IMG/VR virus record: IMGVR_UViG_3300033153_005273
Location: 1 to 45,671 of that record
Length of the DNA: 45,671 nt
From: a virus
Reading direction: 5' to 3' (one strand)
The position numbers and the translations under genes were made by a program. Shown here piece by piece: positions 8,706-40,800 of the stretch (positions are counted from its first letter, which is position 1; each line of letters begins with the position of its first letter). Under the pieces are notes generated by a model, which was not told where the DNA came from, searched no databases, and worked only from the letters and a program-made list of their open reading frames with translations.

Positions 8706-9653
8706 ATGAAATCTAAAATATTTTATTTAATATTGTTTTTATTTTTGTTATTTGTTCTATTTGCTACGTTTGCAAATGGATCTAATATAACATTACGATG
8801 GGATGCAAATACAGAAACAGATCTTGCTGGATATAAATTATATTACAGAGCTGATTTATCTGGGGAACCTTATGATGGCGTGGGAGCCATAGAAGGAGCT
8901 TCCCCTGTTGATATTCCATTGGTGGATTTAGTTGATATAAATAATCCTGAATATACAATAACAGAATTAGATGCAACACATATATATTTTCTTGTTCTTA
9001 CAGCATATGATGATGCGGGAAACGAAAGCGGGTATTCAAATGAAGTAAATACATTTTATATATCTTTTCCACAAAATGATTTTTATATTAATTCTACTAA
9101 TTATACATCTTTTCCTGTATCTGGTCGTGGTGCTGCTGGATATATTGTTGAAATATACTCAGATGGTGTGTTAGTAGGAACAACTACAACAAATATAGAT
9201 GGTGTATGGTCAGCAAATTGTGATTTTACAAGTATAAATAACGGAAATGTAAACATATATGCTGAAACAACTATAATAGACACACTAACTTCAAACATTG
9301 TCAATGGAATATTAGATGTTGAAGCACCGTCGCCACCAAATGTGCCAACAGGTTTAGTAATTGATGTTATATCTTCATCTGAAACTCATCTTGAATGGGA
9401 TATAATTAATGATGCAAATGGGTATATTGTTTATAGAGATAATATTATTATTAATAATACAGAACATGCCGTTTATAATGACACAGGATTAACTCCATTA
9501 ACAACTTACGAGTATGAAATAGCGTCATATTATATAATAGAAAATCCAAGTAATAGATCAATTTTAGTTAGTGTAACTACTTTAAATAACACACAAATAC
9601 CAAGTAAAAGTAGCCCAAGTAATAGTAATTGTTTTATAAATACTTTATTATAG
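8706..9653 (+). CDS. Secreted fibronectin type III protein with CFI-type tail
   Basis: A 315-residue protein. A signal peptide (residues 1-25, KIFYLILFLFLLFVLF, cut near FANG-S) is followed by an FN3 domain (about 27-118, ITLRWDANTETDLAGYKLYY and AYDDAGNESGYSNEV). A Big-like beta domain follows (about 120-200, SGRGAAGYIVEIYSDG and DGVWSANCDF), then a second FN3 domain (about 210-297). The Ser/Pro/Asn-rich end reads NSNCFINTLL, resembling a shortened form of the GGCFIATAAYG tails of deltaproteobacterial surface proteins. Predicted location is the cell envelope or exterior during infection. An early-arm phage gene for a host-like surface protein is unusual. Function may be adhesion or exclusion (inference). 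Confidence 0.75.
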   Translation: MKSKIFYLILFLFLLFVLFATFANGSNITLRWDANTETDLAGYKLYYRADLSGEPYDGVGAIEGASPVDIPLVDLVDINNPEYTITELDATHIYFLVLTAYDDAGNESGYSNEVNTFYISFPQNDFYINSTNYTSFPVSGRGAAGYIVEIYSDGVLVGTTTTNIDGVWSANCDFTSINNGNVNIYAETTIIDTLTSNIVNGILDVEAPSPPNVPTGLVIDVISSSETHLEWDIINDANGYIVYRDNIIINNTEHAVYNDTGLTPLTTYEYEIASYYIIENPSNRSILVSVTTLNNTQIPSKSSPSNSNCFINTLL

Positions 9654-10676: not shown

Positions 10677-10965
10677 AACAAAACCGGCATTTATTACATG
10701 TTGTCCAATTTGTGGTAAATGGATTGTTGATGATAATATTTGTGCTATACCAAATGATGCACACAACTGTGAAAAATGCCCAGATGAAAAGGCATTATGT
10801 AATGAATTTCGTGACCATGCAGACGATTGCAAATGTGCACACATAGACATAATCAGAGAATTGACCTGTAAGATTTATGATTTAGAAGGTGCATTAAATT
10901 TACGTATGCAATATATGATACGACAAGGAGTGGTTAATTATGAAAACTTGGAAACTACTGTATGA
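10666..10965 (+). CDS. Cys-rich zinc protein, 99 aa
   Basis: CCPICGKW (about residues 12-18), CEKCPDEKALC (about 35-45) and CKCAH (about 55-59) supply many cysteines for one or two zinc sites, followed by a helix ending in MQYMIRQGVV. Its last 26 bp overlap the ligase start, whose ribosome site (AAGGAG) lies within this gene, so the two are probably co-translated. Function is unknown. Confidence 0.65.
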   Translation: MSTKTKPAFITCCPICGKWIVDDNICAIPNDAHNCEKCPDEKALCNEFRDHADDCKCAHIDIIRELTCKIYDLEGALNLRMQYMIRQGVVNYENLETTV

Positions 10966-12088
10966 TAAATCATCCACTGGGAAAGTCAAAGAATGGCAAA
11001 TATCTGTTTTTGAAATGGGAAATAGTGCCGAAATTAAAATAATAAGTGGTTATGTTGACGGTAAGAAAACAGTTAGAACTCGAGTTGTAGATAAAGGAAA
11101 AAATATTGGGAAAGTAAATAGTACTACTCCCTACACTCAAGCAATCAAGGATGCCGAATCTAAATGGAAGAAGAAACAAGATAAGGGGTATGTTAGTCAA
11201 ATGAGTCAAGTTGGCAAAAAGCCTAACTATAACCCAATGTTAGCAAAAACCTATTACTCAAAAAATCATCCAAGGGTAGTCAAAGGGGAAGTAAAAGAAA
11301 CTGAGATTATACTTCCTATTTTTGTTCAACCTAAATTGAATGGTGTACGTTGTATTGCAAGAAAAGAGGAGGGAGTAGTATATATTACTTCTCGACTTGG
11401 TAAAGATTATGGGAAAGTTTGTTCTAAACTTACAAATCAACTTCGCCTCGTTATGAATAATACTGAAATTTGGGACGGAGAAATTTATGTTCATGGTTGG
11501 TCTTTTCAAAAGATAATTCGGGCCATCAAAAAGAAAAGAGCCGACACTCGAAAGCTTCAATTCCATGTTTTTGATTTCCCACATTTACATACTGAATTTA
11601 ACAAACGAATTAAATTTATGCACTTAGTTAATAAAAATAAATATGTACATCAAGTTGAAACTATATTAATTAATTATAAGAGTCAAATAAAACCATTTCA
11701 TGACGGTTGGGTATCAGATGGTTATGAAGGTCTTATTCTTCGCGATCCAGAAGGTCTTTATCAGTTCAAACATCGAGTCAAAGAACTTCTTAAATATAAA
11801 GAGTTTATTGATGAAGAGTTTTATATTACATCATTAAAATATGATATGCGACAAGATACAGATGATAATGGTAATATTATACAACGTAAATGTGTTAAAT
11901 TTAAGTGTTATACTAAAGATGGTCTTCATTTTGATGTAGTACCACAAGGAAGTCTTGAACAAAGGGAGTATTGGTGGAATAATCCTCCACTAATTAAAAA
12001 TTTAAAGTTAACGGTACGCTACCAAGAACTAAGTGAAGATGGAGTTCCGATCTTCCCAATAGGAGTGGGGGTAAGAGATTATGAGTAA
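10940..12088 (+). CDS. ATP-dependent DNA ligase with WGR-like N-terminus
   Basis: A 382-residue ligase that seals nicks during phage replication. Residues 1-90 look WGR-like (WQISVFE, GKNIGKVNSTTPYTQA, KKQDKGY). The adenylation domain follows: motif I PKLNGVR with nucleophile Lys132, motif III DGEIYVHG, motif IV YEGLILRD and motif V LLKYKEF. A short OB domain closes the chain (KLTVRYQELSEDGVPIFP). Motif I has Asn where KxDG ligases have Asp. The start is supported by AAGGAG nine bases upstream. It precedes the replication block, with its end overlapping the next ATG by 8 bp. Confidence 0.9.
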   Translation: MKTWKLLYDKSSTGKVKEWQISVFEMGNSAEIKIISGYVDGKKTVRTRVVDKGKNIGKVNSTTPYTQAIKDAESKWKKKQDKGYVSQMSQVGKKPNYNPMLAKTYYSKNHPRVVKGEVKETEIILPIFVQPKLNGVRCIARKEEGVVYITSRLGKDYGKVCSKLTNQLRLVMNNTEIWDGEIYVHGWSFQKIIRAIKKKRADTRKLQFHVFDFPHLHTEFNKRIKFMHLVNKNKYVHQVETILINYKSQIKPFHDGWVSDGYEGLILRDPEGLYQFKHRVKELLKYKEFIDEEFYITSLKYDMRQDTDDNGNIIQRKCVKFKCYTKDGLHFDVVPQGSLEQREYWWNNPPLIKNLKLTVRYQELSEDGVPIFPIGVGVRDYE

Positions 12089-12467
12089 TTATGATGACGA
12101 TGGGGATCTTATGAATAATGGTAATATTTTCGATAACCCAGAGTACATAAAAGCAAAACAATACCAACGTCGCATACGTCGAGGGGAATCAAGTGATACA
12201 GTAAAAGGTTTTAGCCCAGATATGAAAGCCATATTGGGACTTTGTGCGTCGTGTGCATATCATGAATATGCTATTAATGATTTACATCAAATTGTAGTTT
12301 CAAGATGTGAAATGTTTGAAAGTAGTCTTGGAAGACATTCTATAAAAGAGTGTTCTAATTATAAATCACGTGGAAGTTTACCATTATCTATGTTATTTGG
12401 TATGGCAAAGTTAATTGACATTGATAAGAAGAAGAAAACAGGGTTTTTAGAAAAAATTAAAAAGTAG
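12081..12467 (+). CDS. Hypothetical Cys-containing protein, 128 aa
   Basis: Starts within the last codons of the ligase, with a GGAGTGGGGG site. An acidic N-terminus (MSNYDDDGDLMNNG) is followed by a charged helix, then LGLCASCAYHEYA and SRCEMFE-KECSNY. These four cysteines resemble small phage proteins with a C-x2-C ... C ... C iron-sulfur or zinc site. The C-terminal tail is basic. No family is assigned. Confidence 0.65.
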   Translation: MSNYDDDGDLMNNGNIFDNPEYIKAKQYQRRIRRGESSDTVKGFSPDMKAILGLCASCAYHEYAINDLHQIVVSRCEMFESSLGRHSIKECSNYKSRGSLPLSMLFGMAKLIDIDKKKKTGFLEKIKK

Positions 12468-12489
12468 TTTATAACACAAAAAGGAAGAA

Positions 12490-13023
12490 ATGTATTGTAA
12501 AAAAACTTTTTGGTTTTGGTTTTTAGTTGGGCTTATAGTTTGTTTATTGTCTTTTGTTCTTGAGAATACAGCACCTGCAGCTGATATAAGTGTTTCATAT
12601 GGTAAATCTACTTCAATAGATTTTGTAAAGCACCCGAATGTTGGGGAAAGTTATTCCATAAAAACTTTGATAACACAACTTAAAGATGATTTTCCATTGT
12701 TGTTTTCAATAAGTAAACATACCTATAATATAAAGGGGTTAAAGAGTTTCTCCACCTCTTCAATAGGTCTCCAGTATGTACACACTATAACTCGCGGGAT
12801 TTTCTTTACGTCCTTTGGTATTGGTGGTAAATTTACAGAAACAGATAAAAGAAATAAGTGGTTAGCTAATTCGCACATATTAGCCGATCTTAGTGGCAGC
12901 GTAGGTATACGTTGGAAAAACCTTGAATTAGCTTATGTTTTACGTCATCTGTCAGCTCCATGGAGAGATGACCAAGGTTTGAATTATGATATAATTACAT
13001 TTGGGTTTAACTTTACTTTTTAA
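12490..13023 (+). CDS. PagL-like lipid A deacylase (outer-membrane beta-barrel)
   Basis: A 177-residue protein with a signal peptide (1-30, cut near APA-A-DIS) and alternating strands ending FGFNFTF. A terminal Phe is the usual outer-membrane barrel signature. RHLSAPWRDDQGLNYD (152-167) aligns with the H-x-S ... E catalytic stretch of PagL: His153, Ser155 and, 14 residues after the His, Asp167 where PagL has Glu. PagL removes the 3-O-acyl chain of lipid A in the outer leaflet. In an early-arm phage gene this could remodel LPS to block superinfection or favour release (inference). The Glu-to-Asp change and missing SN after the His-x-Ser leave activity uncertain. Confidence 0.65.
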   Translation: MYCKKTFWFWFLVGLIVCLLSFVLENTAPAADISVSYGKSTSIDFVKHPNVGESYSIKTLITQLKDDFPLLFSISKHTYNIKGLKSFSTSSIGLQYVHTITRGIFFTSFGIGGKFTETDKRNKWLANSHILADLSGSVGIRWKNLELAYVLRHLSAPWRDDQGLNYDIITFGFNFTF

Positions 13024-13041: not shown

Positions 13042-14103
13042 ATGGCGACACAGAACAACGAAATGATACAAGTCAATAGCGAGCAGGCGGAAAAAATAGC
13101 AATCAAGATGCTTAAGAACAGGCGTAACTTTATGTTGGTTGGTGCTCCTGGTGTTGGGAAAACATGTATTATTGAACAATCTGCGGCTAAAGCTGAGATG
13201 AATCTTATTGTATTTCACCCTGTTATTAGTGATCCAACGGACTTTAAAGGTATGCCGGCTATTATAAAGAATGAAGACAAAGGTTCCGAAATGACATACC
13301 TTGCCCAGTTTATACCTTTTGATAACTTAAAACGTCTGTTGACTGCAGATACACCAACTGTTGCGTTTGCTGATGATCTTGGTCAAGCACCACCTATGGT
13401 TCAGGCTGCTTGGATGCAGCTTGTGTTAGCACGTAAACTTGATGATAAGATTGTCAGTGATAACATAACCTTTGTTAGTGCGTCAAACAGAAAAGAAGAT
13501 AAGGCAGGTGTCAGTGGTATTCTTGAACCTCTTAAAAGTAGGTTTCACACAATACTTGAACTTGTTGTTGACCATGAGAAATGGTTACCTTGGGCAAGAA
13601 CAAAAGAAGCTCACATTCACCCATATGTACGTGCGTTCATTCGTTGGCGAGGTAGCAAGGCTCTTTATGACTTCCAAGCGTCAAACGATATGACAAATAG
13701 TCCTAATCCACGTACTGTTGAACATGTAAGCGACATTGTTTGGGATGGTCATGATGAGGATGTAAGACCAATTGTTATTGCGGGTGCAGTTGGTGGAGCA
13801 TGGTCAGTTGAGTTTGAAACTTTCATAAAAGTTGTTCGTAATCTTCCCAAAATGAAAGCTATTGTTGAGCACCCCAAAACCTGTATAGTACCAGAAAATG
13901 ACCAAGTGTCTGCACAGTACGCAATTATTGAAGCTATGCTTGACCAAGTCAACATAAAAATAATCAAATCATTTTTAATATATATTGGTCGTTTTAAACC
14001 AGAATTTCAGCAATGGTTTACAACACAGCTTAAAGAACTAAAACCAGAATGTGTACAAACAAAAGCATTTACTGAATGGGCAATTAAATTTGGTATCAAA
14101 TAA
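13042..14103 (+). CDS. MoxR-type AAA+ ATPase
   Basis: 353 residues. Walker A GAPGVGKT (34-41), Walker B TVAFADDL (Asp111-Asp112), sensor-type SASNRKED (about 149-156), then the MoxR GILEPLKSRF segment. MoxR ATPases usually act with VWA-domain partners to remodel proteins or insert metals. Such a partner lies two genes downstream (15316-16761). AAAGGAGAAAGG precedes the ATG. The first residues MATQNN are repeated at the start of the next gene. A cobaltochelatase-like (CobS) role linked to the B12-type RNR is a conceivable alternative. Confidence 0.85.
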   Translation: MATQNNEMIQVNSEQAEKIAIKMLKNRRNFMLVGAPGVGKTCIIEQSAAKAEMNLIVFHPVISDPTDFKGMPAIIKNEDKGSEMTYLAQFIPFDNLKRLLTADTPTVAFADDLGQAPPMVQAAWMQLVLARKLDDKIVSDNITFVSASNRKEDKAGVSGILEPLKSRFHTILELVVDHEKWLPWARTKEAHIHPYVRAFIRWRGSKALYDFQASNDMTNSPNPRTVEHVSDIVWDGHDEDVRPIVIAGAVGGAWSVEFETFIKVVRNLPKMKAIVEHPKTCIVPENDQVSAQYAIIEAMLDQVNIKIIKSFLIYIGRFKPEFQQWFTTQLKELKPECVQTKAFTEWAIKFGIK

Positions 14104-14118
14104 TAGGAGGAAACAATA

Positions 14119-15024
14119 ATGGCAACACAAAATAATAGTAACAAGTTATATGATAAAAATAACAAAGTGGTTAATGCACCAAGTGATGATATGTTAATAA
14201 GACGTGATGAAGCTTTTAAAGCTATAACTAAAAAAGCAATGCTTATAAACATAACACGACGTCAAATAGCAAACATGCCATTTGATATTAAACTTGTAAA
14301 TACTATTTGTAAGACACACAAAATTGATAAAACATATCTTATTCAAATTAGAAAATGTCTTATCAATCCAAAGCATCTCATAAGTATACGTTCTCTTGTA
14401 AGTGATGCTGTTCTTATGGTGTTTAATAACACACGACCATGGGATAATTTTGGGTATCGGTTACTTCCAATGGTTGCCTATGAAGATTTTAACATTACGT
14501 TCAGTAAAATTAAAGATGAGTTTGAAGAAGCTGTTCAAGTTTTTAAAGATAACTATAAATTATATATTGACGAAGCAAAAAAGGATCTTGGAAAAGCCTT
14601 TGACAAGAATGATTACTATAAGAGTGGTGATCTTGAAAGTCTTTTTGAACTTACTGTTGAAACATCTAAATTTACAGACCAGAATGACATACGCTTTGGT
14701 CTTTCTAACGATGAATTGGTTAAAATGCAAGATGAGTTCGTTAAAAGATACACTAAGACAATTAAAGACTCTATTAAAGAGCTTTTTACGTTACTCGATA
14801 ATAATAATAAAAAGGAATCTCTTAAGTTATTCAGTATTATTGAAGCACTGAATATTGATCAAGATGCAGATACTAACCTTCAAATAGCAACATTAAAAGA
14901 AGCCCTGAAAGCTAAATTTGGAACCGATGTTCTTGAAAAGAAAGAAAAAGACATTTCAATTGATGATAGTATGTTACTTACAGATGATATTGACCTTAAT
15001 GAACTTGAAGATTTTTCATTATAA
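14119..15024 (+). CDS. Hypothetical helical protein between MoxR and VWA genes, 301 aa
   Basis: A TAGGAGG site precedes the ATG. The chain is largely helical and charged and ends in a very acidic tail (MLLTDDIDLNELEDFSL). It shares the N-terminal MATQNN with the upstream MoxR protein. No family is recognised. Placement between the ATPase and the VWA protein suggests it is an adaptor or substrate of that system (inference). Confidence 0.7.
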   Translation: MATQNNSNKLYDKNNKVVNAPSDDMLIRRDEAFKAITKKAMLINITRRQIANMPFDIKLVNTICKTHKIDKTYLIQIRKCLINPKHLISIRSLVSDAVLMVFNNTRPWDNFGYRLLPMVAYEDFNITFSKIKDEFEEAVQVFKDNYKLYIDEAKKDLGKAFDKNDYYKSGDLESLFELTVETSKFTDQNDIRFGLSNDELVKMQDEFVKRYTKTIKDSIKELFTLLDNNNKKESLKLFSIIEALNIDQDADTNLQIATLKEALKAKFGTDVLEKKEKDISIDDSMLLTDDIDLNELEDFSL

Positions 15025-15038
15025 GGAATTATAATATT

Positions 15039-15407
15039 ATGTTAGTACAAGTGGAACATACTCCGAAAAATGGCTCCCTCTGTTACTTTTGCGGGGGACA
15101 ACTTGAAATTTTAAATGTAATTCATTTTGAAGGTATGGGAGGCACAGATAGAGCTAATTTTAAAGTCCATACATGTAGATGCTTAAATCACCATATGAAC
15201 TATGTTTATATAATGTATGGTGCTAAGTTTAGTCTTGAAATGAAAATGGCTTATTATGTTGATTACATTGATTTTATAGAACACTATAATATTATGAGGG
15301 GGGAATTATTAACAAATGACGACTACACCTTCAAAGAAATTATCGAAACAACAAAAATCAGTAGCAGCAGTAGCAACAGTAAAAAGCAAGGCAAAGAAAC
15401 TCTTTAA
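15039..15407 (+). CDS. Zinc-site protein, 122 aa as read (probably ends at 15312)
   Basis: The reliable part is residues 1-88: CYFCGGQL (15-22) and HTCRCLNHH (about 48-56) supply a zinc site, followed by VDYIDFIEHYNIMRG. As read, it then continues for 35 Ser-rich residues (KISSSSSNSKKQGKETL) and overlaps the next gene by 92 bp. Removing one G of the G6 run (15298-15303) gives RGNY-stop at 15310-15312, three bases before the next ATG. The G-rich run then serves purely as that gene's ribosome site. I favour the short form. Function is unknown. Confidence 0.65.
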   Translation: MLVQVEHTPKNGSLCYFCGGQLEILNVIHFEGMGGTDRANFKVHTCRCLNHHMNYVYIMYGAKFSLEMKMAYYVDYIDFIEHYNIMRGELLTNDDYTFKEIIETTKISSSSSNSKKQGKETL

Positions 15408-16761
15408 AGATCTTCTTAAGAAAGCACAAGAACGTCAAGAAGCGTCTGAACGATGGGAAACTGATGCCGAAGAAAAGATAAGTTACGCAAAGTCAGCTCT
15501 TATGAAACTTGAACCATTCTTTGCGCAACTTCTTTTTAGATTACCAACAACACCATGTTATGATATTCCTACTATGGCTACGGATGGTAAAAGTTTAGTA
15601 TATAACCCAGAGTTTATCAGCCAAACTCTAATTAGAAAGGATGTAATCTTTGTTTTGTTTCATGAAATAGCTCATATATTTTTTAAACATAACATTCGTG
15701 GCCCAATACGTTCTGTTGATGCTAAAAAAATATTTGAAGAGTATGTTAAAAACAAAGATCGTGGGGTTAAAGATATTTTTATGGACGCACATGTTGGGGA
15801 AATGCAACATATACTGAAAGAGTGGAATTACGCTACGGATCACATAATAAACAATCATATTTTTACCAACACAAAGATAAAACCATCAAAGAAGTTAAAA
15901 GAGGGTCTTCAGTGTGATCCGAAGTTTATTGACAAAACATCTGAATATGTGTATGATAAGATAAAAACTAAATATGACCCATCAAAAGATCAAAGCCAAG
16001 AAATAGATATGGGAATTGGTGGTATACTTCCTTTTGATCTTGGTGGAACAACTAATGCTGAAATTGCAGCGTTTGAGAAAGAGTTTGAGAACAATGTTAG
16101 AGAAGCTGCTATGACCGCCAAACGTGCTGGTAAAATGCCTGGCGGACTTGAAGACATTATAGAAGATCTTTACACAACAACAACACCTTGGCAAGATATT
16201 CTTCGTACGGTCTTTACAAGCATTAACAAACAAGACTACACATTCCAGTACCCTAATAGACGCTATACTATGCACCAAGTTGAACATGGTGTCATTATGC
16301 CTTCCCTTTGGGGAGAGGAGTATGTTAACGTAGGTTTTATTATGGATACATCTGGTAGTGTGGGTTCTAAAGAAAAGAGTATTCTTGTTAGTGAGCTTAA
16401 ATCTATCCTTGAAGATTATCCAATAAAGCTTTTTGTGTTATATTGTGATACTAAAGCGTATACTAAAAATGTTGAAATTCTAACAAAAGAAGATATACAA
16501 AATGGTAAGTTAAAACTTAATGTTAAGGGTAGTGGCGGAACCGATATGCGACCAGCTTTTGATTATTTTCGTGAAAACCAAGACAAATATGAGTTTGAAA
16601 CTGTAATATGCTTGACAGATATGTACCTTAATACTTGGAAACTTGGTGTTGAACCACCGTTCAGTACATTCTGGGCACGATTACCAGATGCAGATAAAAA
16701 GGTCAAACCTCCGTTCGGAACGTGTATTGACATCGTTCTTGACAACACTAATAGGAGATAA
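15316..16761 (+). CDS. Zincin-like plus VWA-domain protein (DUF2201-like), MoxR partner
   Basis: 481 residues. A basic N-terminal tail, then a helical domain with VLFHEIAHIFFKH (His116, Glu117, His120, a metallopeptidase HExxH). The C-terminal VWA domain has MIDAS residues DTSGS (344-348), and SGGTDMRPAF plus CLTDMYLN later complete the metal site. DUF2201 proteins combine these two domains and are typically paired with MoxR ATPases, as here. Whether the HExxH site is active, and on what, is unknown. GAGGGGGG lies upstream of the ATG. Confidence 0.85.
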   Translation: MTTTPSKKLSKQQKSVAAVATVKSKAKKLFKDLLKKAQERQEASERWETDAEEKISYAKSALMKLEPFFAQLLFRLPTTPCYDIPTMATDGKSLVYNPEFISQTLIRKDVIFVLFHEIAHIFFKHNIRGPIRSVDAKKIFEEYVKNKDRGVKDIFMDAHVGEMQHILKEWNYATDHIINNHIFTNTKIKPSKKLKEGLQCDPKFIDKTSEYVYDKIKTKYDPSKDQSQEIDMGIGGILPFDLGGTTNAEIAAFEKEFENNVREAAMTAKRAGKMPGGLEDIIEDLYTTTTPWQDILRTVFTSINKQDYTFQYPNRRYTMHQVEHGVIMPSLWGEEYVNVGFIMDTSGSVGSKEKSILVSELKSILEDYPIKLFVLYCDTKAYTKNVEILTKEDIQNGKLKLNVKGSGGTDMRPAFDYFRENQDKYEFETVICLTDMYLNTWKLGVEPPFSTFWARLPDADKKVKPPFGTCIDIVLDNTNRR

Positions 16762-19535: not shown

Positions 19536-20773
19536 TAAAAGAACACCTAATATTAAGAGCTTTTCTTTCAGACAGAACTACGTTTGAGAAATATGCACCA
19601 TATATAATTAATCTTGAAAATCTTGATCGTAGTATGAAGATAACACTTGGTTTTATTAAGTTATTTTACGAAACATATCGAAAGATAGATAAGGTAATAG
19701 AACCAGAGTTTAATTTGTTCTTGGAAAAGGAAGATAAGTTTAACTTTCTTAAGAACAACACAACATACATACAAGACATTTACAAGACACCAATACAAAA
19801 CAACAGTCTTACTCTTGACGTTATTGAGAGTTGTGTTGAACAGCACATAATGTCAAAAGTGCTTGATAAAGCTGCACTTGTACTCGATAATAATAAGAGT
19901 GGTATTCTGTCATCAATACAAGATGATATTGACAAGTTTCACAGTATCATACGTAATCCACCAAAAGATATGATGGAATATACTCTTGACCTTGACTCGC
20001 TCATTAAAGACGAGATAACAACCATGGGTATACCATTCTGCAACAAACGCCCAAATGATATGATTCGTGGTATGAGAGTTGGTCAACTTGGGCTAATATA
20101 CGCATATGTTGGGACTGGAAAGACAAGTTATGGAGTATCTAACTTGTGTAGTGTTGCAAGTATTCTTGAAGCTAAGAATTCAGATCGACCTGTCGTTTAT
20201 GGTGGTAATGAAGAAGCGATTAAACGTATTACTCTCCGGACTATACAGTGTATGACAAATTGGAATGACACCGAGATTGCAATAAATAAAGCTCTTGTTA
20301 CACCAATTTTAAAAAGAAAGGGATTCAACAGGATCCACTTCATAGACCATGTAACCACTACAACAATTCTTGAAAAAATACTTGACAAATACAATCCACG
20401 TGTTATGTTTATAGATCAGGGAACAAACGTGAAAATAAGTTCCTCTAAAAAAGAGGGGGTTAACGCTCTTGAAGAACTTTTTAGTCTTTACCGAGATCTT
20501 GCCAAACGTCATAATTGCACTCTAATATGTATGGCTCAAGGTGGTGAAGATTGTTTTGATAAACAATATCCAACACTTAAAGACATTTATGGTTCAAAGA
20601 GTGCCATTCAAGGAACGCTGGATTGGGCGATAAGTGTTGGACGTACATTTGATGACGTTAAATACCTTAACTGGCGTTACTTTAACATCACAAAAACTAA
20701 AGGTAAAAACGATAATCCTAAATATGAATGTAGATTTGACACTGATAGGTGTCAATTTAAACAGGTGGTGTAA
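19532..20773 (+). CDS. DnaB-like replicative helicase
   Basis: 413 residues. A helical N-terminal domain is followed by a RecA-like core: Walker A YVGTGKTSYG (in MRVGQLGLIYAYVGTGKT), Walker B PRVMFIDQG, then the MAQGGED and GSKSAIQGTLDWAISVGRT region of DnaB/gp4-type helicases. It unwinds DNA ahead of the phage polymerase as a hexamer. It starts inside the primase stop (ATGA), so primase and helicase are the split equivalent of T7 gp4. Walker B has Gln after Asp (FIDQG), slightly atypical. Confidence 0.85.
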   Translation: MIKEHLILRAFLSDRTTFEKYAPYIINLENLDRSMKITLGFIKLFYETYRKIDKVIEPEFNLFLEKEDKFNFLKNNTTYIQDIYKTPIQNNSLTLDVIESCVEQHIMSKVLDKAALVLDNNKSGILSSIQDDIDKFHSIIRNPPKDMMEYTLDLDSLIKDEITTMGIPFCNKRPNDMIRGMRVGQLGLIYAYVGTGKTSYGVSNLCSVASILEAKNSDRPVVYGGNEEAIKRITLRTIQCMTNWNDTEIAINKALVTPILKRKGFNRIHFIDHVTTTTILEKILDKYNPRVMFIDQGTNVKISSSKKEGVNALEELFSLYRDLAKRHNCTLICMAQGGEDCFDKQYPTLKDIYGSKSAIQGTLDWAISVGRTFDDVKYLNWRYFNITKTKGKNDNPKYECRFDTDRCQFKQVV

Positions 20774-20775
20774 TT

Positions 20776-21201
20776 ATGGCAGAATTTAATCGCGATGTAC
20801 CTCTTTGGATTACAAAAGAACACCAAACTTGTGAACTTTGTAAATGGTTTTATTATGGATATTCTATGAAAAATGAAAAGTGTATGACGGAAACTGATGA
20901 TGAGGGAGGTTGTGTAAATTGGGAACCAGAACCAAGTCAAGTTTGTACCACAGAAATTGATGCGCAACGTATTGAGCAGCTTGAATTTGAGGTTCTTTCG
21001 TTAATAAAGCAAATGGCTGTACTTCAGGAACAATTAGATAAGATTATGAGTTACAGTGGTGGTGGCAGAGGTAATTACACTTATGATAATAATCATTATT
21101 ATACCGCCAGTGACTCACCAAATTCAGTTTATGTTAGCACAACCAAACCAATGGCTCCCATAAGTACTGCAAATATTTTAAAGAAGAAAGGAATAACATA
21201 A
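20776..21201 (+). CDS. Hypothetical Cys-rich protein between helicase and polymerase, 141 aa
   Basis: Starts three bases after the helicase stop with a CAGGTGG site. CELCKWF (residues 20-26), KCMTET and GGCVNWE resemble the small C-x2-C ... C ... C cluster proteins of phages. A Leu/Gln coiled coil follows (EQLEFEVLSLIKQMAVLQEQ) and a disordered Gly/Tyr/Ser tail. Possibly a replisome accessory protein, by position only. Confidence 0.65.
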   Translation: MAEFNRDVPLWITKEHQTCELCKWFYYGYSMKNEKCMTETDDEGGCVNWEPEPSQVCTTEIDAQRIEQLEFEVLSLIKQMAVLQEQLDKIMSYSGGGRGNYTYDNNHYYTASDSPNSVYVSTTKPMAPISTANILKKKGIT

Positions 21202-21202
21202 T

Positions 21203-23203
21203 ATGAAAATAATTGGGGGTTTTGACACTGAAACATCAAAAATACCCAACCACTTTCCGTGGTTTGTAGATCATTACCTAAGTCTTGTAAGCATATCATA
21301 CCCAAATGATACCACTCGTACTTGGACTTTTTTTCATGACGAAAACAATATAAGTATAGCACTCTATGAAAAACAACTCCACGAAATTGAGGTCGAATTA
21401 AATAAGTTTGACATTATAGCAGCTCACAACTTAAAGTTTGATCTCAACATTTTAAGGGGGCTTAAATTAACAACCTCTTTACATTGTACAATGGTTGGGG
21501 AGTATCTTCTTACAGAACAAACAAATAAGGGATTAAAGCTTGATGATCTATCCTTGAAATATGGATTACCACTAAAGATAGATAAGGTAAAACTAATGTG
21601 GGATGGTGGTCTTGACACAGCTGAAATACCACTTTCAATACTCACGCCATATTGTGAAGGCGATGCTTGGAAAGCACGAGTTATTGCAGAGAAACAGATT
21701 ATACGTTTAAAGAAAGCTGGACTCACTAAGGTTTTTGATCTTCAAATGGAATGGCTTGACCTTCTTTCTTTGATGGAGTGTAACGGTATTCTTTGGGATA
21801 TGCCAAAAGCCCATAAAATAATAGCAAAATATAAAAAATATCAAAATACACTTTCGAAAAAAATCTTAAAACTTCTTCAACCATATCATCCAAACCTTGA
21901 TATTTCTTTAACATCAAAGGATGAATTATCTGCTTTGATTTATGGTGGACAAATAAAACGAAAAGAGAAATGTTCTGTTATAAAAACAAAGAACATAAAA
22001 ACCCAAACACCCTATATATTTACATACAAAGATGGGCGGAAAAAGATAAAACTACGCTGGCAAGACCATCCAGACACAAAGATAATACGACGTGTATGGC
22101 AAGATGTGTGGTATACTATTAAAGGGCTTGCTTTAATTCCGCTACCTAAAACAGAAGTATCAAAATCAACAGATGCTAAAAAATATTACAAAACTGGAAA
22201 AAATGTTCTTCCATTTTTAAAAACAAAAACTTTAATTCAAAAAAGAATTATTAAATTACTTCTTAAATTATCGGTTGTAAATAAGGTAATAACAACTTTT
22301 ATTAACGAAGACAAAGGAACTGGACTCGTAAAAAAGATTGGGCGTGATGGGAAATTACACACAAATTATAATCAAGCGGTTACTATTACAGGAAGGTTAA
22401 GCAGCAGTGATCCTAACAGTCAAAACCTTCCTCGTGGTAATACAAGCCCAATTAAGCAGTGTATTATTCCACGATTTGATTTTATTGTTAATGCTGATCT
22501 CAGCCAAATTGAATGGAGAGTGCCGGCATTTTTAAGTCAAGATGCAACAATGATTCGTGAAATAAAAGAAAAAATTGACCAGCATGGGTCAGCTTGTACT
22601 AAATTGATGGGGTTGACTTTAAATAAATTAAACCGTTTCTATGCGAAAACATTTAACTTTCGTATGATATATGGAGGAACTGAATGGGGATTTCATAAGG
22701 ATGCCAATATGCCAAAGTTTGGTATTAAAAAGTGGCGTCAAGTTGTAGTTGATTTCTACAGTAAATATAGGAATCTTAAATTATGGCAAGATAAAAACAT
22801 AAACACCGTTATTCAAGGAGATGGCACATTAACATCACCCACAGGACGACGGTATAGATTTAAGATCATGCCATATAATGGTAAGTATAACGAAAAACAA
22901 ATTAAAAACTATCCAGTACAGGGCATGGCTGGTGGCGATATTCTTCCACTTGCAGCAATAATTATTTGTAGAGCCATGAAAAAAGCCAACATGAAAGCTA
23001 TTCCAATACTCACTGTGCATGATAGTCTTGTTTTCGATACACCAAAAAATGAGGTTAGTGCGTTAGCAGACATCTGTATGAAAGTATTCAAAAATCTTCC
23101 GTTTTACATCAAATATTATTGGGGTATAGATTGGAATGTACCCTTAACAGGAGAAATTGAAGCTGGAAAAACATACGGAAATATGAAGCTTATTCGTAAA
23201 TAA
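21203..23203 (+). CDS. Family A DNA polymerase with 3'-5' exonuclease
   Basis: 666 residues, without a 5' nuclease domain. Exo I FDTET (Asp8, Glu10), Exo II AAHNLKFDLN and Exo III YCEGDA give an intact proofreading site. Polymerase motifs: A ADLSQIEWR (Asp432), B RFYAKTFNFRMIYGG, C TVHDSLVFD (His606-Asp607). The residue equivalent to E. coli Phe762 is Phe. It is the replicative enzyme, directly downstream of primase and helicase. The stop is followed by a 106-bp gap with a phage promoter, so it closes the first replication operon. The start is two bases after the previous stop. Confidence 0.93.
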   Translation: MKIIGGFDTETSKIPNHFPWFVDHYLSLVSISYPNDTTRTWTFFHDENNISIALYEKQLHEIEVELNKFDIIAAHNLKFDLNILRGLKLTTSLHCTMVGEYLLTEQTNKGLKLDDLSLKYGLPLKIDKVKLMWDGGLDTAEIPLSILTPYCEGDAWKARVIAEKQIIRLKKAGLTKVFDLQMEWLDLLSLMECNGILWDMPKAHKIIAKYKKYQNTLSKKILKLLQPYHPNLDISLTSKDELSALIYGGQIKRKEKCSVIKTKNIKTQTPYIFTYKDGRKKIKLRWQDHPDTKIIRRVWQDVWYTIKGLALIPLPKTEVSKSTDAKKYYKTGKNVLPFLKTKTLIQKRIIKLLLKLSVVNKVITTFINEDKGTGLVKKIGRDGKLHTNYNQAVTITGRLSSSDPNSQNLPRGNTSPIKQCIIPRFDFIVNADLSQIEWRVPAFLSQDATMIREIKEKIDQHGSACTKLMGLTLNKLNRFYAKTFNFRMIYGGTEWGFHKDANMPKFGIKKWRQVVVDFYSKYRNLKLWQDKNINTVIQGDGTLTSPTGRRYRFKIMPYNGKYNEKQIKNYPVQGMAGGDILPLAAIIICRAMKKANMKAIPILTVHDSLVFDTPKNEVSALADICMKVFKNLPFYIKYYWGIDWNVPLTGEIEAGKTYGNMKLIRK

Positions 23204-28277: not shown

Positions 28278-28694
28278 ATGAGTGAATTTAAACCGATAGT
28301 TGAGTTAATACGACTCGAAGAGAATTATATATATGGTACATTTGGTATTATTAAAATAAATAAAAAAGTTTTTTCAGTTTGTTTAGAACCACATGATGAA
28401 CTCAACAAAACGTCAAAATCATCCATACCAGCACAACAATATGATTGTTTGCGGTATTCTTCAGATAGGTATCCAGATACGTTCCAAGTAATGAATGTTC
28501 CGGATCGCCATAAAATTCTTTTTCATGCTGGTAACTTTGCGGAAAATACAGAAGGTTGTATTCTTCTTGCACGTAAATTTGGAGTGATAAAAAGTGGTCG
28601 TGCAATTCTAAATTCCGGAGAAACATTCAAACAATTTATGGAAATAATGGAAGGTGTTGAGGAGTTTCATCTTACAATTAGAGAAACTTATTAA
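28278..28694 (+). CDS. DUF5675 family protein
   Basis: 138 residues. The order IELIRLEE-type start, TYGTFGI-like strand (YGTFGIIKIN), FSVCLEPHDELN, SIPAQQYDCLRYSS, then DRHKILFHAGNFAENTEGCI is the typical DUF5675 arrangement (conserved xxxLExPxN, H-x-GN-x2-E-x-TxGCI). It resembles the fold of L,D-transpeptidase-type cell-wall enzymes, with His and Cys in HAGN and EGCI. Function is not established. TAGGAG precedes the ATG, and the gene is followed by the tRNA pair. Confidence 0.75.
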   Translation: MSEFKPIVELIRLEENYIYGTFGIIKINKKVFSVCLEPHDELNKTSKSSIPAQQYDCLRYSSDRYPDTFQVMNVPDRHKILFHAGNFAENTEGCILLARKFGVIKSGRAILNSGETFKQFMEIMEGVEEFHLTIRETY

Positions 28695-28702: not shown

Positions 28703-28777
28703 AGTGGGATAGTTCAATGGTAGAACACAAGACCTTGGATCTTGTTGTTGTAGGTTCAAGTCCTACTCCCACTGCCA
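28703..28777 (+). tRNA. tRNA-Gln (anticodon TTG), with C33
   Basis: Complete cloverleaf: acceptor AGTGGGA/TCCCACT, D-arm GTTC/GAAC, anticodon stem CAAGA/TCTTG with loop CCTTGGA, five-base variable loop, T-arm GTAGG/CCTAC with TTCAAGT, and encoded CCA. Reading positions 34-36 gives TTG (Gln). Position 33 is C instead of the near-universal T. It may support CAA codons frequent in this AT-rich genome. Confidence 0.85.
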
Positions 28778-28781
28778 AACT

Positions 28782-28858
28782 GCGGGTGTAGCTCTAACTG
28801 GTAGAGCATTGGGTTTCCAACCCGAGTGTTGTCGGTTCGAGTCCGACTACCCGCTCCA
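28782..28858 (+). tRNA. tRNA-Gly (anticodon TCC)
   Basis: Cloverleaf: acceptor GCGGGTG/TACCCGC (one G-U), D-arm GCTC/GAGC, anticodon stem TTGGG/CCCGA with loop TTTCCAA, T-arm GTCGG/CCGAC with TTCGAGT, discriminator T and encoded CCA. Anticodon TCC reads GGA, a common Gly codon here. It lies four bases after the tRNA-Gln gene, so one transcript probably carries both. Confidence 0.92.
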
Positions 28859-29173: not shown

Positions 29174-29417
29174 GTTAATTTGGGAAACAGTTCATCAAGG
29201 GATAGATGACCATAAAAGTTATGACCATTGTATACTTGAACCAGTTAAAAATAAACCCTATACTATGGCACCAGATTTTAGAAAGCACGAATTAGATGAT
29301 GTTGTTCAACATATATTAAATTATCTTGCAGTTGAATTTGAAACAACAGAACGTACCATAACACTCGTAAACAAAGGATCATATGTTAAGTCAAAACGCA
29401 CAAAAGATAGCAAATAA
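29145..29417 (+). CDS. Hypothetical protein before RNR, 90 aa
   Basis: The start is ATG 29145, eight bases after GAGGAG, rather than the in-frame ATG 18 bases upstream. It begins [20 protein letters not shown], similar in layout to [20 protein letters not shown] at 31764, so the two genes flanking RNR may be paralogues over their first 25 residues. The C-terminus differs and overlaps the RNR start by 35 bp. Function is unknown. Confidence 0.6.
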
Positions 29418-31764
29418 ACGATACCTTATGGAAGGTGAAGACTGGAAAAGCGGAACACTACGTGTTGCTGAAGGTAACGCAGCTGGTAAACCACGTTACG
29501 AATATTATAGAGATACCTTTCATAATATGATATATAATATGTATATGATACCTGGGGGACGCATACTACGCAACACACGACGCCCACGAGGATCACTATA
29601 CAACTGCTATCATCTTCCCATTAACGACAGTATTGAAGGTATTGGAGATTGCATTAAGAACGCCCTCATACTTTGGAGTGATGGTGGTGGGGTTGGTATT
29701 AACTTCAGTCAACTACGCCCAAAGGGCGCACCAATTATGGGAAAAGGTGGAACATCCAGTGGGGTAGTTTCTTTTATGATGGCACTTGATGCAGCAGCCA
29801 ATACAATAGAAAGTGGGGGACAGAGGAGGGCTGCTGCGTTAGGGGCTCTTGATGTTTCACATCCAGATATTATTGACTTTATGGATGCCAAGTTAAAGGA
29901 TGGACTACTTTCTTGTTTCAATATCAGCGTCAACATTACCAACGAATTTCTTGAAGCGGTAATCAAGAACGCCACTTGGGATTTAAAATTCAATCAACAA
30001 GTATATCGCACAGTTAAAGCACGAACAATTTGGAACAAGATCATAACAAACATGGTAAAGAATGGAGAACCTGGCCTTCTTAATATGTCAAACTTTGTTA
30101 AAAACAACAGCTATTATTATTCTCCTATTCTTGGAACCAATCCTTGCATATCGGGAGATTCTTTTGTTAAAACTACAATGGGGAGTATTCCCATTAAAAT
30201 GCTGACTAAGTATAAACAGGTAGAAGTATATTCTAAAAATCCTAATGGTGATCTTGTTATAAGACCAGCTAAATTTTTTAGAACTAAAACTAAAGCACGA
30301 ACTATTACTGTTTATACAACAAGAGGTTACCTTAAATGTACAGAAGATCATAAATTTATTACACCAAATGGGGAGATAAAAGCAAAAGATTTAAAACCAA
30401 ATCAAAAACTAATTGGTTTGTTGAGTAAAAAACGTAATGAAACACATTTAAAAGTTGGATGTACTGGTAGTATTTATTTTGACGAAGAAAAGTTTGTAGC
30501 TGGTTATTATTATGGAGATTTATACAGTAATGATGTTCATCATTTAGATGGTAATCCCCATAATAATTCTATTATGAATTTACAATTATTACCACATTAT
30601 ATTCACTCAATGGTTTCAAATAATGGGCATAAACAATGGAATAAAACAAATGAGAAAGGACAATTTGTGTCTAAAAGTGTTAAAAAAAGAAAAAAGATTC
30701 AAGAATATAGTTCTTCTGGTAAAGTATGGAAAGTATTAAAAGTAGATATGACTATTAATCATGAACCTGTATTTGATGGACAAGTTGTAGGAACAAATTG
30801 TTATTTTGCTAATGGTATTCTTGTGCATAACTGCGGAGAAACCTGCCTTTCTGCTTGGGATGTTTGTAATCTTGGTTCTCTTGTGCTTCCTAAATTTCAA
30901 GGTGCCGGCGGTAACACTAATTGGGAAAAACTAAAAGAAATCATACACCTTAGTGTACGTTTTCTTGACAACATTATTGACAACAACAGGTACTCTATTG
31001 ATAAAATACGTATGCAAGCACATAGTAGTAGACGTATAGGGCTTGGTGTTATGGGTGTAGCTGACTACCTTTTTAAAAAGAAAATACGTTATGGTTCCGC
31101 TAAAGCAGTGGAAGAAGTAGAACGTCTAATGAAGTTCATTCGGAACGAGAGTTATCTTGCTTCTGTCGAACTTGCTAAAGAGCGTGGTGCTTTTCCAGCG
31201 TTTAGCGCAGAGGAGTATTGTAAGGCGAGCTTTATACGGAAGTTACCCCCAAAGATCCGTATGGCAATACGTGAATACGGAATTAGAAACGTCACACTCA
31301 ACGCTCTTGCACCAACAGGAACGATCAGCCTCCTTGCCGATGTAACTCCTGGTATAGAACCATTGTTTGCAAAGGCATATAGACGATCTGACAGGGTTGG
31401 GGAACGTGTTTATGTGCATCCATTGTACGAACAAACTGATAATGAATGGCTTGTTGATGTTGAAGATATTACACCAGAAGAACATCTTGATATGCAAGTG
31501 GCCTTTCAAAAGTTTACGGATAGTAGCGTGAGTAAAACAATCAATCTCCCGAAGGATTTTAAGAAGGATAATCTTAATACACTTCTACTTGAGTACGCTT
31601 TTGACATTAAAGGAGTGACTGTATATCGTGATGGTTCTCGGAAAGGTCAAATACTTAACCGCCTTTCCTATGATGAAGTGAAAAAATATTTAAAGAACAA
31701 CAGAGTTTCAACAACTCAAGTTGAAGAAGACGTATCATGTTCAATAAAAGGGGGATGTGAATAA
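29383..31764 (+). CDS. Class II-like ribonucleotide reductase, interrupted by an intein
   Basis: 793 residues, of which 229 are intein, leaving a compact 564-residue enzyme. Extein landmarks: [20 protein letters not shown] (substrate-side Cys), [33 protein letters not shown], active-site [19 protein letters not shown] after splicing, [20 protein letters not shown], and a C-terminal Cys pair (VSCSIKGGC) for re-reduction. NPCGE and the lack of an adjacent small subunit point to the adenosylcobalamin-dependent class. It makes dNTPs for phage replication. The start has AAAGGA six bases upstream. Confidence 0.9.
30145..30831 (+). other. In-frame intein with HNH motif, inserted before the RNR catalytic Cys
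   Basis: Intein residues 255-483 of the precursor. It begins with Cys ([10 protein letters not shown], block A), has a block B-like [15 protein letters not shown] (T-x2-H), and ends FANGILVHN (blocks F/G) before Cys+1. [15 protein letters not shown], followed by LLPHYIHS, is an HNH_3-type homing-endonuclease motif, unusually compact. Splicing joins GTNP to CGETCL, so the +1 Cys is the thiyl-radical Cys of the reductase. The DNA is visibly more AT-rich than the exteins. Confidence 0.88.
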
Positions 31765-34838: not shown

Positions 34839-37800
34839 TTATTTTTTCCTTGATACTTTTCTAAGACGTTTATAAAATTGTTCCCCAGATTTTATTTCAG
34901 CATAATATTGATATGCTAAACCAAGAGCATATTGGTCACGTTTGTTTAGAGATGCTAAAAATAATCTACGATGCCGGCTTCCTTTAGGAAACTTAGCAAG
35001 TGGATCAAGTTTTAACCATTGTTTTCTAATTACTTCACTATAATTTATTCTACCTCCAAGTTCCCTTTGTTTAATAACCATGAACTCTTTAAAGTATTTT
35101 CGCATTGCCTTATCATCACCATATCTATATGCCATACCCATATTATAGAGTGCATTACCAGACTCGGTAACAATAAACCCACTTGTACCAGGCTTTGCTT
35201 CCTTGAGATACTCATGTACTTTTTGTTGAATTGCAATCCAACCGAAACGTTTTCTGTCCCCTTTGTATATTGGACTTAGTTTCATAGCAGCATCAACCCA
35301 ATGACTTTCTTTAGTTGGGCGACCAGTAATAGCGTCATAAACCACATCGGCTTGTAATTGCTCCGCAACATATCTGAGTCTATCTGTAATGGGTTGCCTG
35401 TTCCAAATAGAAGGGAACACCTTCTCACCCATAACCAGTTCAACAGGCATCTTAACATATGGCCCAAGACTCTGGGCAATCTTATTCATAATATCGCCAA
35501 TATTCTTCTTGCCCATATCATAACTTGCAATAACATCCTTAAAAGTTTTCTTACCAATCAGAATATCCATTGCATCCGTTGGTGCTGTATCTACACCAGC
35601 CCATTCAAGAAGATCACCAAGTATACCAATTCTTGGAAAGTATAGTATTTGATCTTTGTGATTACCATATATTATGTGAACACGTCTGTGCATCTCATCG
35701 GGCAATGCATCTTCCTCATCAGGCCAAACAAATTGGTTCCAAGCTTGTGTAGCTACATGTAACATCCCCATTTTAAAAGCAAATTTACCAAGCTTAATTG
35801 GAATAATTACACCTTTTGCCCCAAGTTTACGCCCTATGGTAGCCATGAGGTCATCATTCTTAACTGCATTTCGTGCAAACTGAAGAGTACGCTTCATATT
35901 AATCTCTTGGAAAGACCAGAAAGGAGCAAGATAAGTCCTAAAGTTTTCACCAAAAGTTGTAATACGATCATAAGCCCCAAGAAGATCGTTAGACATAAGG
36001 AAGGCTTTGTCCTTATCGTCGACAATTTGATTAACTTCTTCGGGCATTGAAGCAGCATAGTTCTTTATTTTACCACCACTCTCAAGGAGTGTAACATACC
36101 GTTTGTATGCAGCATAACGAAATAGACTCTCACGCGTATCAGTCCAAGCACGAGCTTTCTTACCATACCAAGTAGCTGGATCTGTTATCTTTTTCTTACC
36201 AGAGTAGTGCTTAACAAACATTGGGTCGGTAAGCATTTTACCCATCTCTTGACTTTGAAGTGTACTTTCCGTACCACCCCTATCAATCCAATCTTGAAGA
36301 TGTTTAGGTGCAACTCCTGTCTTCTTCCACTCTTTAAGATCCTTAGCTGCACCCCAAACATATTTAAAGGTAGCTGGATCCCCAACAAACATAGCCTCAG
36401 CATCACCTGTGAGGTTACGAAAGTTATATTTCAAAGCTCTGAATGGGTGAAGAAGTTGCCACATCTTCCACATACGCATAGTGTGTCGCACAGCGTTTAA
36501 GAATGGCCCACGTTTAGGTCTAGCAAGAGCATCATTAAGAGTCTCGGCTATACTGTCAGGTAAAAAATAACTCTCATACTTGCCACCTAATGCAACTATT
36601 TTGTTTATCTTTGACACTGGAACATTAAGTTCTTTGAGTCCCTTTTCCATTGCTTCTTGTGCCATCTTCCCTGGAATACTGTTAGCAAGATAGAATATAG
36701 AATCTTCACGTGGGTTATAAGGGGAATACCCCTTTTTTTCAGTTTTAGAACCATACTTGTCCATAATGGCTTTAAGTGTGCGCCCTATTTGAGTGTCGTG
36801 CATCATTTGTGACATTACTTCAAACTCAGCTTGAATGTAATTGAGGTTCATCTCATACGCACCACCCTTACGTTTTCGAAGTGAGGATCGTCTGGTTGGT
36901 ACAGCAAGCTTACCACCACTACCTGTTTGACTGTATTGTGCTTGTTGAGCTTTTAGGATGTCAAGTATTTGATGTCTAAAATAGAACGCTCTTGTAATTT
37001 TATTTTCAACACTAAACCCAACATCATTCATAGCAGAAATATATTCTACACGAAGTTGTCTCCACATGTCAAGTCTATTATACCAAGCCCGCAATACTTT
37101 AGCGTTACCTTGCACTGCTGCCCATACTCGTGGGGTTTCAGTAAGTATTTGTTTTTCTGTCCACCCATATGGAAACTCCTTGACAACTACTTTTTCACCA
37201 GCTGTGCGTAACTTTTGATTCATTTTGACTTGTTCATAGAAATCCATCATGTAACTTACTTTTGTTAGAAGACTGATTTCGTTTTTTGAGAGACCATCAA
37301 GATTCTTTGCAAGTAACTTTGCTGTTTTAGCCATTGATATGCTTTGACTTTTTTTGAGACTACGCAATTTATATTGCACATCGCTATATGTTTTTCTTGC
37401 AAGATGTTTAAATTCACGAAAGTTCTTTTTAAAATCGTTACGCATATGATTAAGAAATCGTGTGAAATAATTTGGAGCTATGAACCCTGCCTCGCCTTTA
37501 ACAGAATCCTTATGCATCTTATCATCTCCAAACTTGAACGGAGTGTCATCAAGTTTTTGAGTTTCATAGTTGACAAGCGGATCGTAGTTTGGCATATCGT
37601 CAGAGATAAGTTTATTGTTTTCAAAACTATCCCATAACTCATTCTCTACTTTTTGACTAATAGGATTAGTAATAATAAAATTAGGGTCACCATCAATAGG
37701 TCTTTTTATTTTTAGTTTCCAACCAAGATGTTTTGCAAGTCTTTGCGCAAATCCCTTGTAGATTTTATTTTTCTTTTCATCATATGTGCTACCAGTAAAG

Positions 37801-40800
37801 ACAATTTGTCGTGGAACTTTAGCATTATATTGGTTATTAAGTAGATCAAAAAGCATTCGTTGAATAGCACGTATTGTTTGGATGCCTTTCTTGGCTTTAT
37901 CTTTTATTTTTGTGTCATAAAAACTATATCGCTCATATGTCGGAGTGATACCCTTTTCTTCAAGGAGAAAACTAATTGTTGTTTGATTATCTTCGCTATA
38001 CGGATCTATCTTACGATGATCAAACTCAATGAGAATACGACTATCTGGGCCGAAGTTACTACGTGCTTTAGTTACACCCTCCCCATCCATAGTAATTTCA
38101 AACTCATAATTATGAATCTTAGTCCGGAGATCTTCAGCTTCTTTTATTTTAGCAACCAACGTTTTCTTATCTAGTTTATCAACAGCAAGCGAACTACCAT
38201 ACGCAGAACTATCACGATCTATTACTGTAAACATATATCCAGAGGGAACATAGCCATCATTTGGAGCACAGTATGTTTCGAACTTAACTTTACGTGGACA
38301 ATTTTTGTCGAGGATACGTTGTATTGGAACTTTAGCTGCGGTATTTTCTCTGGTAATGGTGAGGTTCTCATAACTGGTATTTTGCCCTGTTATTGCTTGT
38401 GCAAGTTCAGTAACCAATTCTTTTGCTTCAATATCATCAATAATACCATACACTTCTCGGGCTTGTTTTATTGATGGTATTATTTGATCTACTACTTTCT
38501 TTGGCATTGCCTTACCAGTTATAATATATTTCTCGCGAACATATTTCATTTGTTTGGCAAGTACACGACGAGACTCTCCCGCAGTTTTGGCTCCGGTTTG
38601 TACCATAGTCTTCTCACGTTTTGTAGAATCCTCTTCTGTAAACGCTTTGACTTTTGTTATGGCACTTGGAGTTCCAAGTTTTTGAAGGTCGGTTTTTAAT
38701 ATTGGGGGAGCATCTTCACCAGACCAATCATAAAATTCCTTTGGCCCAACGAGATCAATGAGACTATTCTTTGCAAACTGTACAGAACTATGTGGTGCAT
38801 CAAGATGTACTAATCGTTTGTATTCCGCTTTGAAGAATTTAGTCTGCTTTGCTTCAGTAGCTCCAGCATCTTTCGTAAGTTTTTCCTCCGCTGCTCTTTG
38901 TTTTGCCAAGTCGTTACGCAGCGCCTTTTCTTGAAGAAGTGATATAGCTTGGAGTCGTGTTTCATAATATCTTATCTGTCCCTGAAAATTAGTTAATCCT
39001 TTATCAACCGCTTCTTTAAGTTTGGCTCTAACTTTTGATGCTTCATTTTCAAGAGTAGTGGGTTGCATAGTGCTGAGACCAGCTGTTGGATTAAGCTTAT
39101 CCCATCTACTTTCAACACCATGTTTTTTTACGTAGGCTTCCCTTACCTTTTGATTGTCGGCACGTTCATCGGCCCAATGTTGAGTTAATGTTTTATTGCC
39201 ACGTCCTTTTCTACGAGCATCAAGAAGCATCTTATCTTTCTCAGAGAGTCTTTTCTTTGCTTCTTTAACTACCGTTGGTTCAGTCTCAAAATTAGAATAA
39301 CGTATATCTTCACCAGTCAAAGCTCCACTATCCGGATCAATTACCTTTCGGTGTGGGTCAACCATACGACCAGCTTCTTCCCGAGTGTAATAGTCAAGAA
39401 TCTTACCACTCTTATCTACTGCTGCAAACCCATCAAGCGATCCTATAGGAGCACCTTTAATATCCCAGTGCCCAAGAGGGCTTACCCACGTCTTGCCACT
39501 TTCACTATCAATGAGAGCCGGCTGAAGAGATGTGGCTCCCTTTGGAAACCCATGGAACTTCTTTATGTCAAGTTCATAACTATGGTACTCACCCTTTTTA
39601 AATTCCTCACCAGCAATTTCTTGTGCTTGTTGGGACACACGGGTTAACCATTTATTCTCAACGGCAAGAAGATCATCAAGTATTGTTTGACTTTTAACAC
39701 CCTTCAATGGAATATTTTTAAAGAGCGCCCGAATAATCCGTTGCCAAATACTTTCTGGGGCTTTTGTTCTTGGGTTAATTGACTTTATGCTGGCGAGTAC
39801 ACGAGATATTTCAACACGACTAAACGCATTTGCCATAATCTCTTCCCAATATTCAGAACGTTCCTCCTTGTTACCGTACTTTGGGTCTCCAGTTTTCTTG
39901 GCAGCATTTACTATTGTTGACCAAGCCTTACGAAAGTTACGTTGCTTAACAGTATAGGATTCCCATTGTGCTTTATACGGAGAACCTATTACGTTCTTCA
40001 TGTCATATTCAGTAGCCCAGCCATGCATACGATCTAAATATTTTTTTGGTATACTAAACCAAATATCTTCTACATCTTTAAGAAAGCCTTTCATTTCAGT
40101 TGTTTTTGCAGAACCAAGCTCAGCACGATAGATAGCATGGATAAGTTCATGAACAAGAGTGCCTTCCGCATACTCTTGATTAAGATCCCTTGCTAACGCA
40201 TCGGGGTTTAATCCAACATGAATCTCACCAACCTGCCCAGTATATTGATTCGATACCCACGATGTTGTTAGTCCACGAGTAACGGAATCTGGGGTTGTTT
40301 GGTCATTAAGATCACCAACATAAAATTCAACTTTCTTTCCAGAAGAGATTAGTTTATCAATGAGAAACTGATACTCAAACTCCCCATTAAATATCTTCTC
40401 TTCAAGTCTTTCAATTATTTGCAAACCAACTTCACGTTCAATAACACGCGAATTATTTGAACCAAGGTATGCATCTTTAACTTCTTCGGCCCTACCACTC
40501 TGTTCTACATAACTATCTCTCCGTGTAAAAACTTTACCAAGATGCGGAGAATCCTTTATCGGACGTTGCCCAGTTGGTTCCACAACATTAGCAGACTTTA
40601 AAGATACTGCGCTAGGTGCAATAGGTTGTTCATCTAATTCTGCTTGACTTACTCCTTGATACTGTTCTAATTGACTTTGAAGCGCGGCTTTATATTCTTT
40701 AGAAGTTGTTTTAGATTCAAGAGCTTTGTCAACAAGTTTTTTAGTGGGTGGAACAAGTATTCCCTTATCAAAAATATAACCCTTAAGTATTTGCGATTGT

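Follow-up and report, generated by a model that had tools for sequence, protein, structure and literature searches.

Can a phage carry an enzyme that edits the lipid A of its host? This question is raised by a small gene in the IMG/VR virus record IMGVR_UViG_3300033153_005273, which was analysed over its entire length of 45,671 nucleotides (hereafter the window). PagL is a lipid A 3-O-deacylase, which trims fatty chains off lipid A, and a preliminary description of the gene, made from the letters alone, had proposed a PagL-like lipid A deacylase encoded by the phage. A reading-frame check confirmed an open frame of 177 residues, here called P0001, spanning precisely 12490-13023 on the plus strand. 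Inspected by eye, its N-terminus shows a Lys-Lys n-region, then a long hydrophobic stretch and then APAA/D, its strands alternate, its final residue is Phe, and His153 is followed by Ser155 and, at +14, by Asp167; the signal peptide, the barrel pattern with terminal Phe and the spacing of His, Ser and acid are thus all present as first described. The best reading is that of a predicted, divergent phage-borne PagL-like outer-membrane esterase. Because P0001 resembles a distant cousin of PagL, the virus may, through this predicted enzyme, remodel the outer coat of its host during infection.

Features of the P0001 gene and its product in the window, with the basis of each assignment
Feature	Position	Strand	Basis
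PagL-like outer-membrane barrel gene, 177 aa (P0001)	12490..13023	+	open frame, homologue at E 8.8e-25, predicted fold
Shine-Dalgarno-like AAGGAAG	12481..12487	+	read from sequence; ends 2 bases before the ATG
Signal peptide, residues 1-31, APAA/DIS	12490..12582	+	sequence; helix 3-26 in the model
Mature barrel, eight strands	12583..13020	+	AlphaFold2, two-sequence alignment
Conserved block 1, residues 114-135, KxTExDxRNxWLAxSxxLADxS	12829..12894	+	14/22 identical with homologue
His153, proposed as catalytic; on strand 7 with lipid-facing parity	12946..12948	+	invariant; aligns to PagL His126
Ser155, proposed nucleophile	12952..12954	+	invariant; aligns to PagL Ser128
Asn165, candidate for the third residue in place of Asp167 when GLN is matched to PagL GIE/GIN	12982..12984	+	invariant
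Asp167, proposed catalytic acid	12988..12990	+	invariant; opposite PagL Glu140 without a gap in the profile alignment

A relative of the gene was reached by way of the ribonucleotide reductase, which led to the phage contig IMGVR_UViG_3300025669_000052. This contig and the window have in common a primase, a DnaB helicase, PolA, an exonuclease, a DUF5675 protein and the ribonucleotide reductase, and at 20634-21149 the contig encodes a homologue of P0001 with about 32% identity. The homologue lies directly upstream of the ribonucleotide reductase gene; P0001 is flanked on one side by an ORF of unknown function, itself located after the DNA ligase (10940-12088), and on the other by a MoxR-like AAA ATPase (13042-14103), amid replication and nucleotide genes. 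The position of the gene therefore differs between the two phages, yet the gene was kept. Other contigs related by their ribonucleotide reductase were searched for the P0001 gene and do not carry it. Between the two proteins H153, S155 and D167 are invariant within HLSxPWRxDxGLNxD. Identity amounts to 48/143 overall and rises in block 1, which covers the third extracellular loop together with the ends of strands 5 and 6 next to it, and in residues 153-167 (11/15), with hypergeometric P values of about 0.002 and about 0.001, respectively, that are descriptive, as the blocks were picked after the alignment had been seen. Conservation thus centres on the third and fourth extracellular loops; ordinary barrels are usually variable in their extracellular loops. 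Among 682 open frames of three phages, only P0001 and its homologue have an H-x-S at 25 residues from the C-terminus together with Asp/Glu at +14, which is more than chance.

Several other loci of the window were recorded. The ribonucleotide reductase large subunit (29383-31764, plus strand) is interrupted by an intein (Pfam Intein_splicing at residues 296-483), inside which lies an HNH domain (HNH_3); the insert is larger in 3300025669_000052 at about the same site and absent from a third relative. DNA polymerase A is a single ORF here (21203-23203, plus strand) and is encoded in 3300025669_000052 by two adjacent ORFs (10713-11924 and 11924-12649), split near residue 422/428. The MoxR-like ATPase opens a segment (13042-16761, plus strand) in which a phrog_1314 protein follows two genes on, a pair that we take to be associated with N4-like phages; the ATPase shares only about 28% identity with its nearest phage records. 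A phrog_1501/DUF5675-type gene (28278-28694) is directly followed by two tRNA genes, for Gln (ttg) and Gly (tcc), at 28703-28858 (plus strand). An ORF at 8706-9653 (plus strand) combines a signal-like N-terminus with a fibronectin type III domain and has homologues in both related phage contigs. On the minus strand, an ORF of 2585 residues (34839-42596) has no PHROG or Pfam match and is adjoined by two further unmatched ORFs (42610-44925), possibly forming a structural region, and an ORF of 375 residues (1585-2712) matches DUF285, a Mycoplasma-type repeat, barely above the cut-off.

Judged by sequence, the family to which P0001 belongs is tiny. P0001 alone retrieved nothing from viral contigs, genome contigs, plasmids, phages, Pfam, PHROGs or PDB sequences and could be placed in no family. 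When 50,697 phage records were compared with P0001, its homologue and three different PagL proteins, only weak unrelated matches and no relative appeared. Scans of IMG/VR with the two-member profile, with its C-terminal part and with the HLSxPW DNA motif returned only 3300025669_000052, and a scan with the PagL alignment returned none; these scans require exact matches to short patterns, and distant relatives escape them. The two-row phage profile gave chance-level matches and nothing convincing in 398 Pseudomonadota genomes. A paper describing a phage PagL was not found in the open-access literature, such absence being weak evidence.

The fold was predicted with AlphaFold2 from an alignment of the two phage sequences only, which contained no PagL sequence. 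The model has eight strands (residues 32-40, 54-65, 68-80, 87-99, 105-115, 130-142, 145-155 and 164-176) at pLDDT 68 and pTM 0.59; a model of P0001 alone (pLDDT 38) was useless and was discarded. Together with the signal peptide this gives, at medium confidence, the architecture of PagL (PF09411). In Foldseek, PagL of Pseudomonas aeruginosa (2ERV) was the top solved structure and the sole match below 0.001 (E 9.4e-4), and in VIA-align it again ranked first (Z 15.8, rmsd 2.4, 131 residues aligned). A fold other than an eight-stranded barrel, which had been named in advance as the result that would speak against the proposal, was therefore not what the prediction returned. A designed barrel, OmpA, NspA and OmpW follow closely at Z 14 to 15.6, so that the fold alone is not decisive. 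By parity, L145, L147, Y149, L151, H153 and S155 share one face of strand 7, and N165, D167, I169, F171, F173, F175 and F177 share one face of strand 8. As these residues are largely hydrophobic, both faces are presumably turned toward the lipid, the side to which the active site of PagL is also exposed.

Independently of the fold, the sequence profiles support PagL as the family singled out. The best Pfam model for the homologue is PagL (PF09411; E 0.0026, 18.3 bits, profile positions 41-134 of 136), ahead of OMP_b-brl (PF13505; 14.5 bits, cut-off 28.7). The curated PF09411 cut-off of 23 bits is reached by neither protein, P0001 giving no match at all. With an HMM built from 32 diverse PagL-family proteins, the homologue (22 bits) and P0001 (10.8 bits) ranked first and second among 451 ORFs of the three phages. 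Shuffles of the mature sequence reached the score of the homologue in 0/1865 cases and that of P0001 in 15/1935, and P0001 therefore needs its homologue for the PagL claim. In profile-profile comparison, the phage pair aligned with PagL end to end over 142 columns (score 29.5, E 1.5e-5), with H153, S155 and D167 placed without a gap under PagL His126, Ser128 and Glu140; column shuffles yielded at most 11.3, and 0/200 reached 29.5. The OMP_b-brl and OmpW (PF03922) profiles, in a control set that still contains a few odd rows, did not match the phage pair (scores 5.5 and 6.4; probabilities 0.15-0.53% and 0.19-0.29%, respectively). Two further matches were rejected: a PF09411 match elsewhere in the window (16529-16660, minus strand; 14.2 bits, one stop) is spurious, and an NCBIfam 'LpxF' match of P0001 (E 0.02) reaches 14.8 bits, the cut-off being 400, and begins inside the signal peptide.

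These comparisons bear on the strongest rival explanation, in which P0001 is a phage outer-membrane barrel of the Lom/Ail/OmpX sort without enzymatic activity that obstructs a receptor or, by binding, modifies the surface, its H, S and D residues serving binding or structure. The fold matches to OmpA, NspA, OmpX and OmpW close behind PagL would suit such a protein, as would the viral fold search, in which small barrels occur in many phage genomes. This explanation is nevertheless rather unlikely, as the PagL profile beats OMP_b-brl and OmpW by a wide margin, conservation clusters at H-x-S...D and at the third and fourth loops, and lipid-facing polar His, Ser and Asp residues would be hard to explain in an inert barrel.

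The catalytic residues of P. aeruginosa PagL are His126, Ser128 and Glu140. The invariant H153 and S155 of the phage proteins form an H-x-S on strand 7, aligned to the first two of these, and the distance of 25 residues from His to the C-terminus is the same in P. aeruginosa PagL and in 24/32 diverse PagL-family proteins. The preliminary description had pointed out that the acid is Asp and not Glu, and Asp indeed stands at +14 from His in both phage proteins. In the 32 family members this position is held by Asn (16), Glu (11), Asp (4) or Gln (1), so that Asp for Glu is not unusual and N165 and D167 are both acceptable. The ungapped alignment and the count from the C-terminus let D167 correspond to Glu140; aligning G163-L164-N165 with the family G-x-(E/N/D) places N165 at the acid position instead, a register that would also fit the end of the structural alignment, where model residue 175 meets PagL residue 150. 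The third catalytic residue is accordingly proposed to be D167 or N165. The segment after the His differs: the S-N-(A/G) of PagL, whose Asn is found in 32/32 family proteins of a set selected for HxSN, is replaced by SAP in P0001 and SVP in the homologue, each followed by Trp. The Ala/Val-Pro-Trp in place of Asn-Ala-Gly is unusual; weaker members of the PagL family carry His, Gln, Ser or Gly in place of this Asn, and none was seen with Pro-Trp. Since the curated cut-off is missed and the SNAG segment is absent, P0001 is not filed as a PagL (PF09411) member. The original proposal of a PagL-like lipid A deacylase hence stands as regards the eight-stranded model and PagL as top structure and top profile, and falls short at the Pfam cut-off and at SAPW versus SNAG.

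The segment after the Ser also bears on a second rival, an esterase of PagL shape that acts on a phospholipid or another acylated molecule instead of lipid A and weakens the envelope for lysis. OMPLA, which is thought to serve in colicin release, combines His142 and Ser144 with Asn156, i.e., His-x-Ser with Asn at +14, an arrangement that N165/D167 would suit as well as that of PagL, and the phage proteins depart from PagL in the loop that follows the Ser. However, OMPLA is a 12-stranded barrel of about 270 residues, compared with 8 strands and 146 mature residues in the phage protein, the profile match is to PagL, and the gene lies among replication genes in both phages and not beside recognisable lysis genes, which leaves this rival distinctly improbable. 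A resemblance that arose by chance in a small and hydrophobic phage protein, as the lack of significant similarity of P0001 by itself might suggest, is hardly credible given a conserved homologue with the same motif and length, the barrel model and a profile-profile match beyond all shuffles.

The reading preferred here, at a probability of about 0.58, is that P0001 is a secreted eight-stranded outer-membrane barrel, a descendant or close likeness of PagL, that hydrolyses an outer-leaflet lipid ester, most likely of lipid A; P0001 is thus probably a lipid A deacylase by prediction. The gene, its conservation and its PagL-specific similarity are established, as is the barrel as a prediction; that the protein works like a PagL is a supported, predictive claim, for which the name divergent PagL-like variant in phages is suggested. 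Mechanistically, the signal peptide suggests that P0001 is exported, and it is predicted to fold into the outer membrane, where His153 and Ser155 would face the lipid from strand 7, close to its outer-leaflet end, and, with Asp167 (or Asn165) of strand 8, could hydrolyse a lipid ester of the outer leaflet, most likely at a primary acyl chain of lipid A. From its location among replication and nucleotide genes one may guess that P0001 is made during DNA replication, and a changed lipid A might, equally as a guess, affect how phages adsorb (superinfection exclusion) or make the envelope looser ahead of lysis. The bolder proposal that a small phage deacylase family, marked by HLSxPW, strips acyl chains from lipid A during the replication phase and thereby causes superinfection exclusion is unlikely. 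Phages are known to alter the O-antigen and to block receptor proteins; if the proposal were true, neither of these would be the target of exclusion, which would instead edit the lipid anchor. Were a phage enzyme to act on the acylation of lipid A, the outer membrane would have a new point of attack; P0001 is predicted to widen the sequence space of PagL-like catalysis.

Among known systems, the phage outer-membrane barrels of the Lom/OmpX/opacity-like type are likewise small barrels in phage genomes, but they are not known to carry the His-x-Ser...Asp arrangement of P0001. LpxR, a lipid A 3'-O-deacylase, is 12-stranded and Ca-dependent with different active-site residues (PMC6863877); it is likewise an outer-membrane lipid A deacylase, and its structure 3FID is only a weak fold match to the model. 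OMPLA, also 12-stranded (PMC7383365), resembles P0001 in its His-x-Ser with the third residue at +14 and differs in strand number and in its larger size; it was absent among the matches found in the searches. PagL (PF09411; 2ERV) is the best structural and profile match, and it shares with the phage protein the signal peptide, eight strands, a mature size of 146 (phage) versus 150 residues, His-x-Ser on strand 7, an acid or amide on strand 8 at +14 from the His, and 25 residues from the His to the C-terminus. It differs in that P0001 is phage-encoded, only about 12% identical and below the Pfam cut-off, in S-N-A-G versus S-A/V-P-W, in Glu140 versus Asp167/Asn165, and in the TExDxRNxWLAxS block of the third extracellular loop of the phage proteins, which does not characterise the PagL sequences compared.
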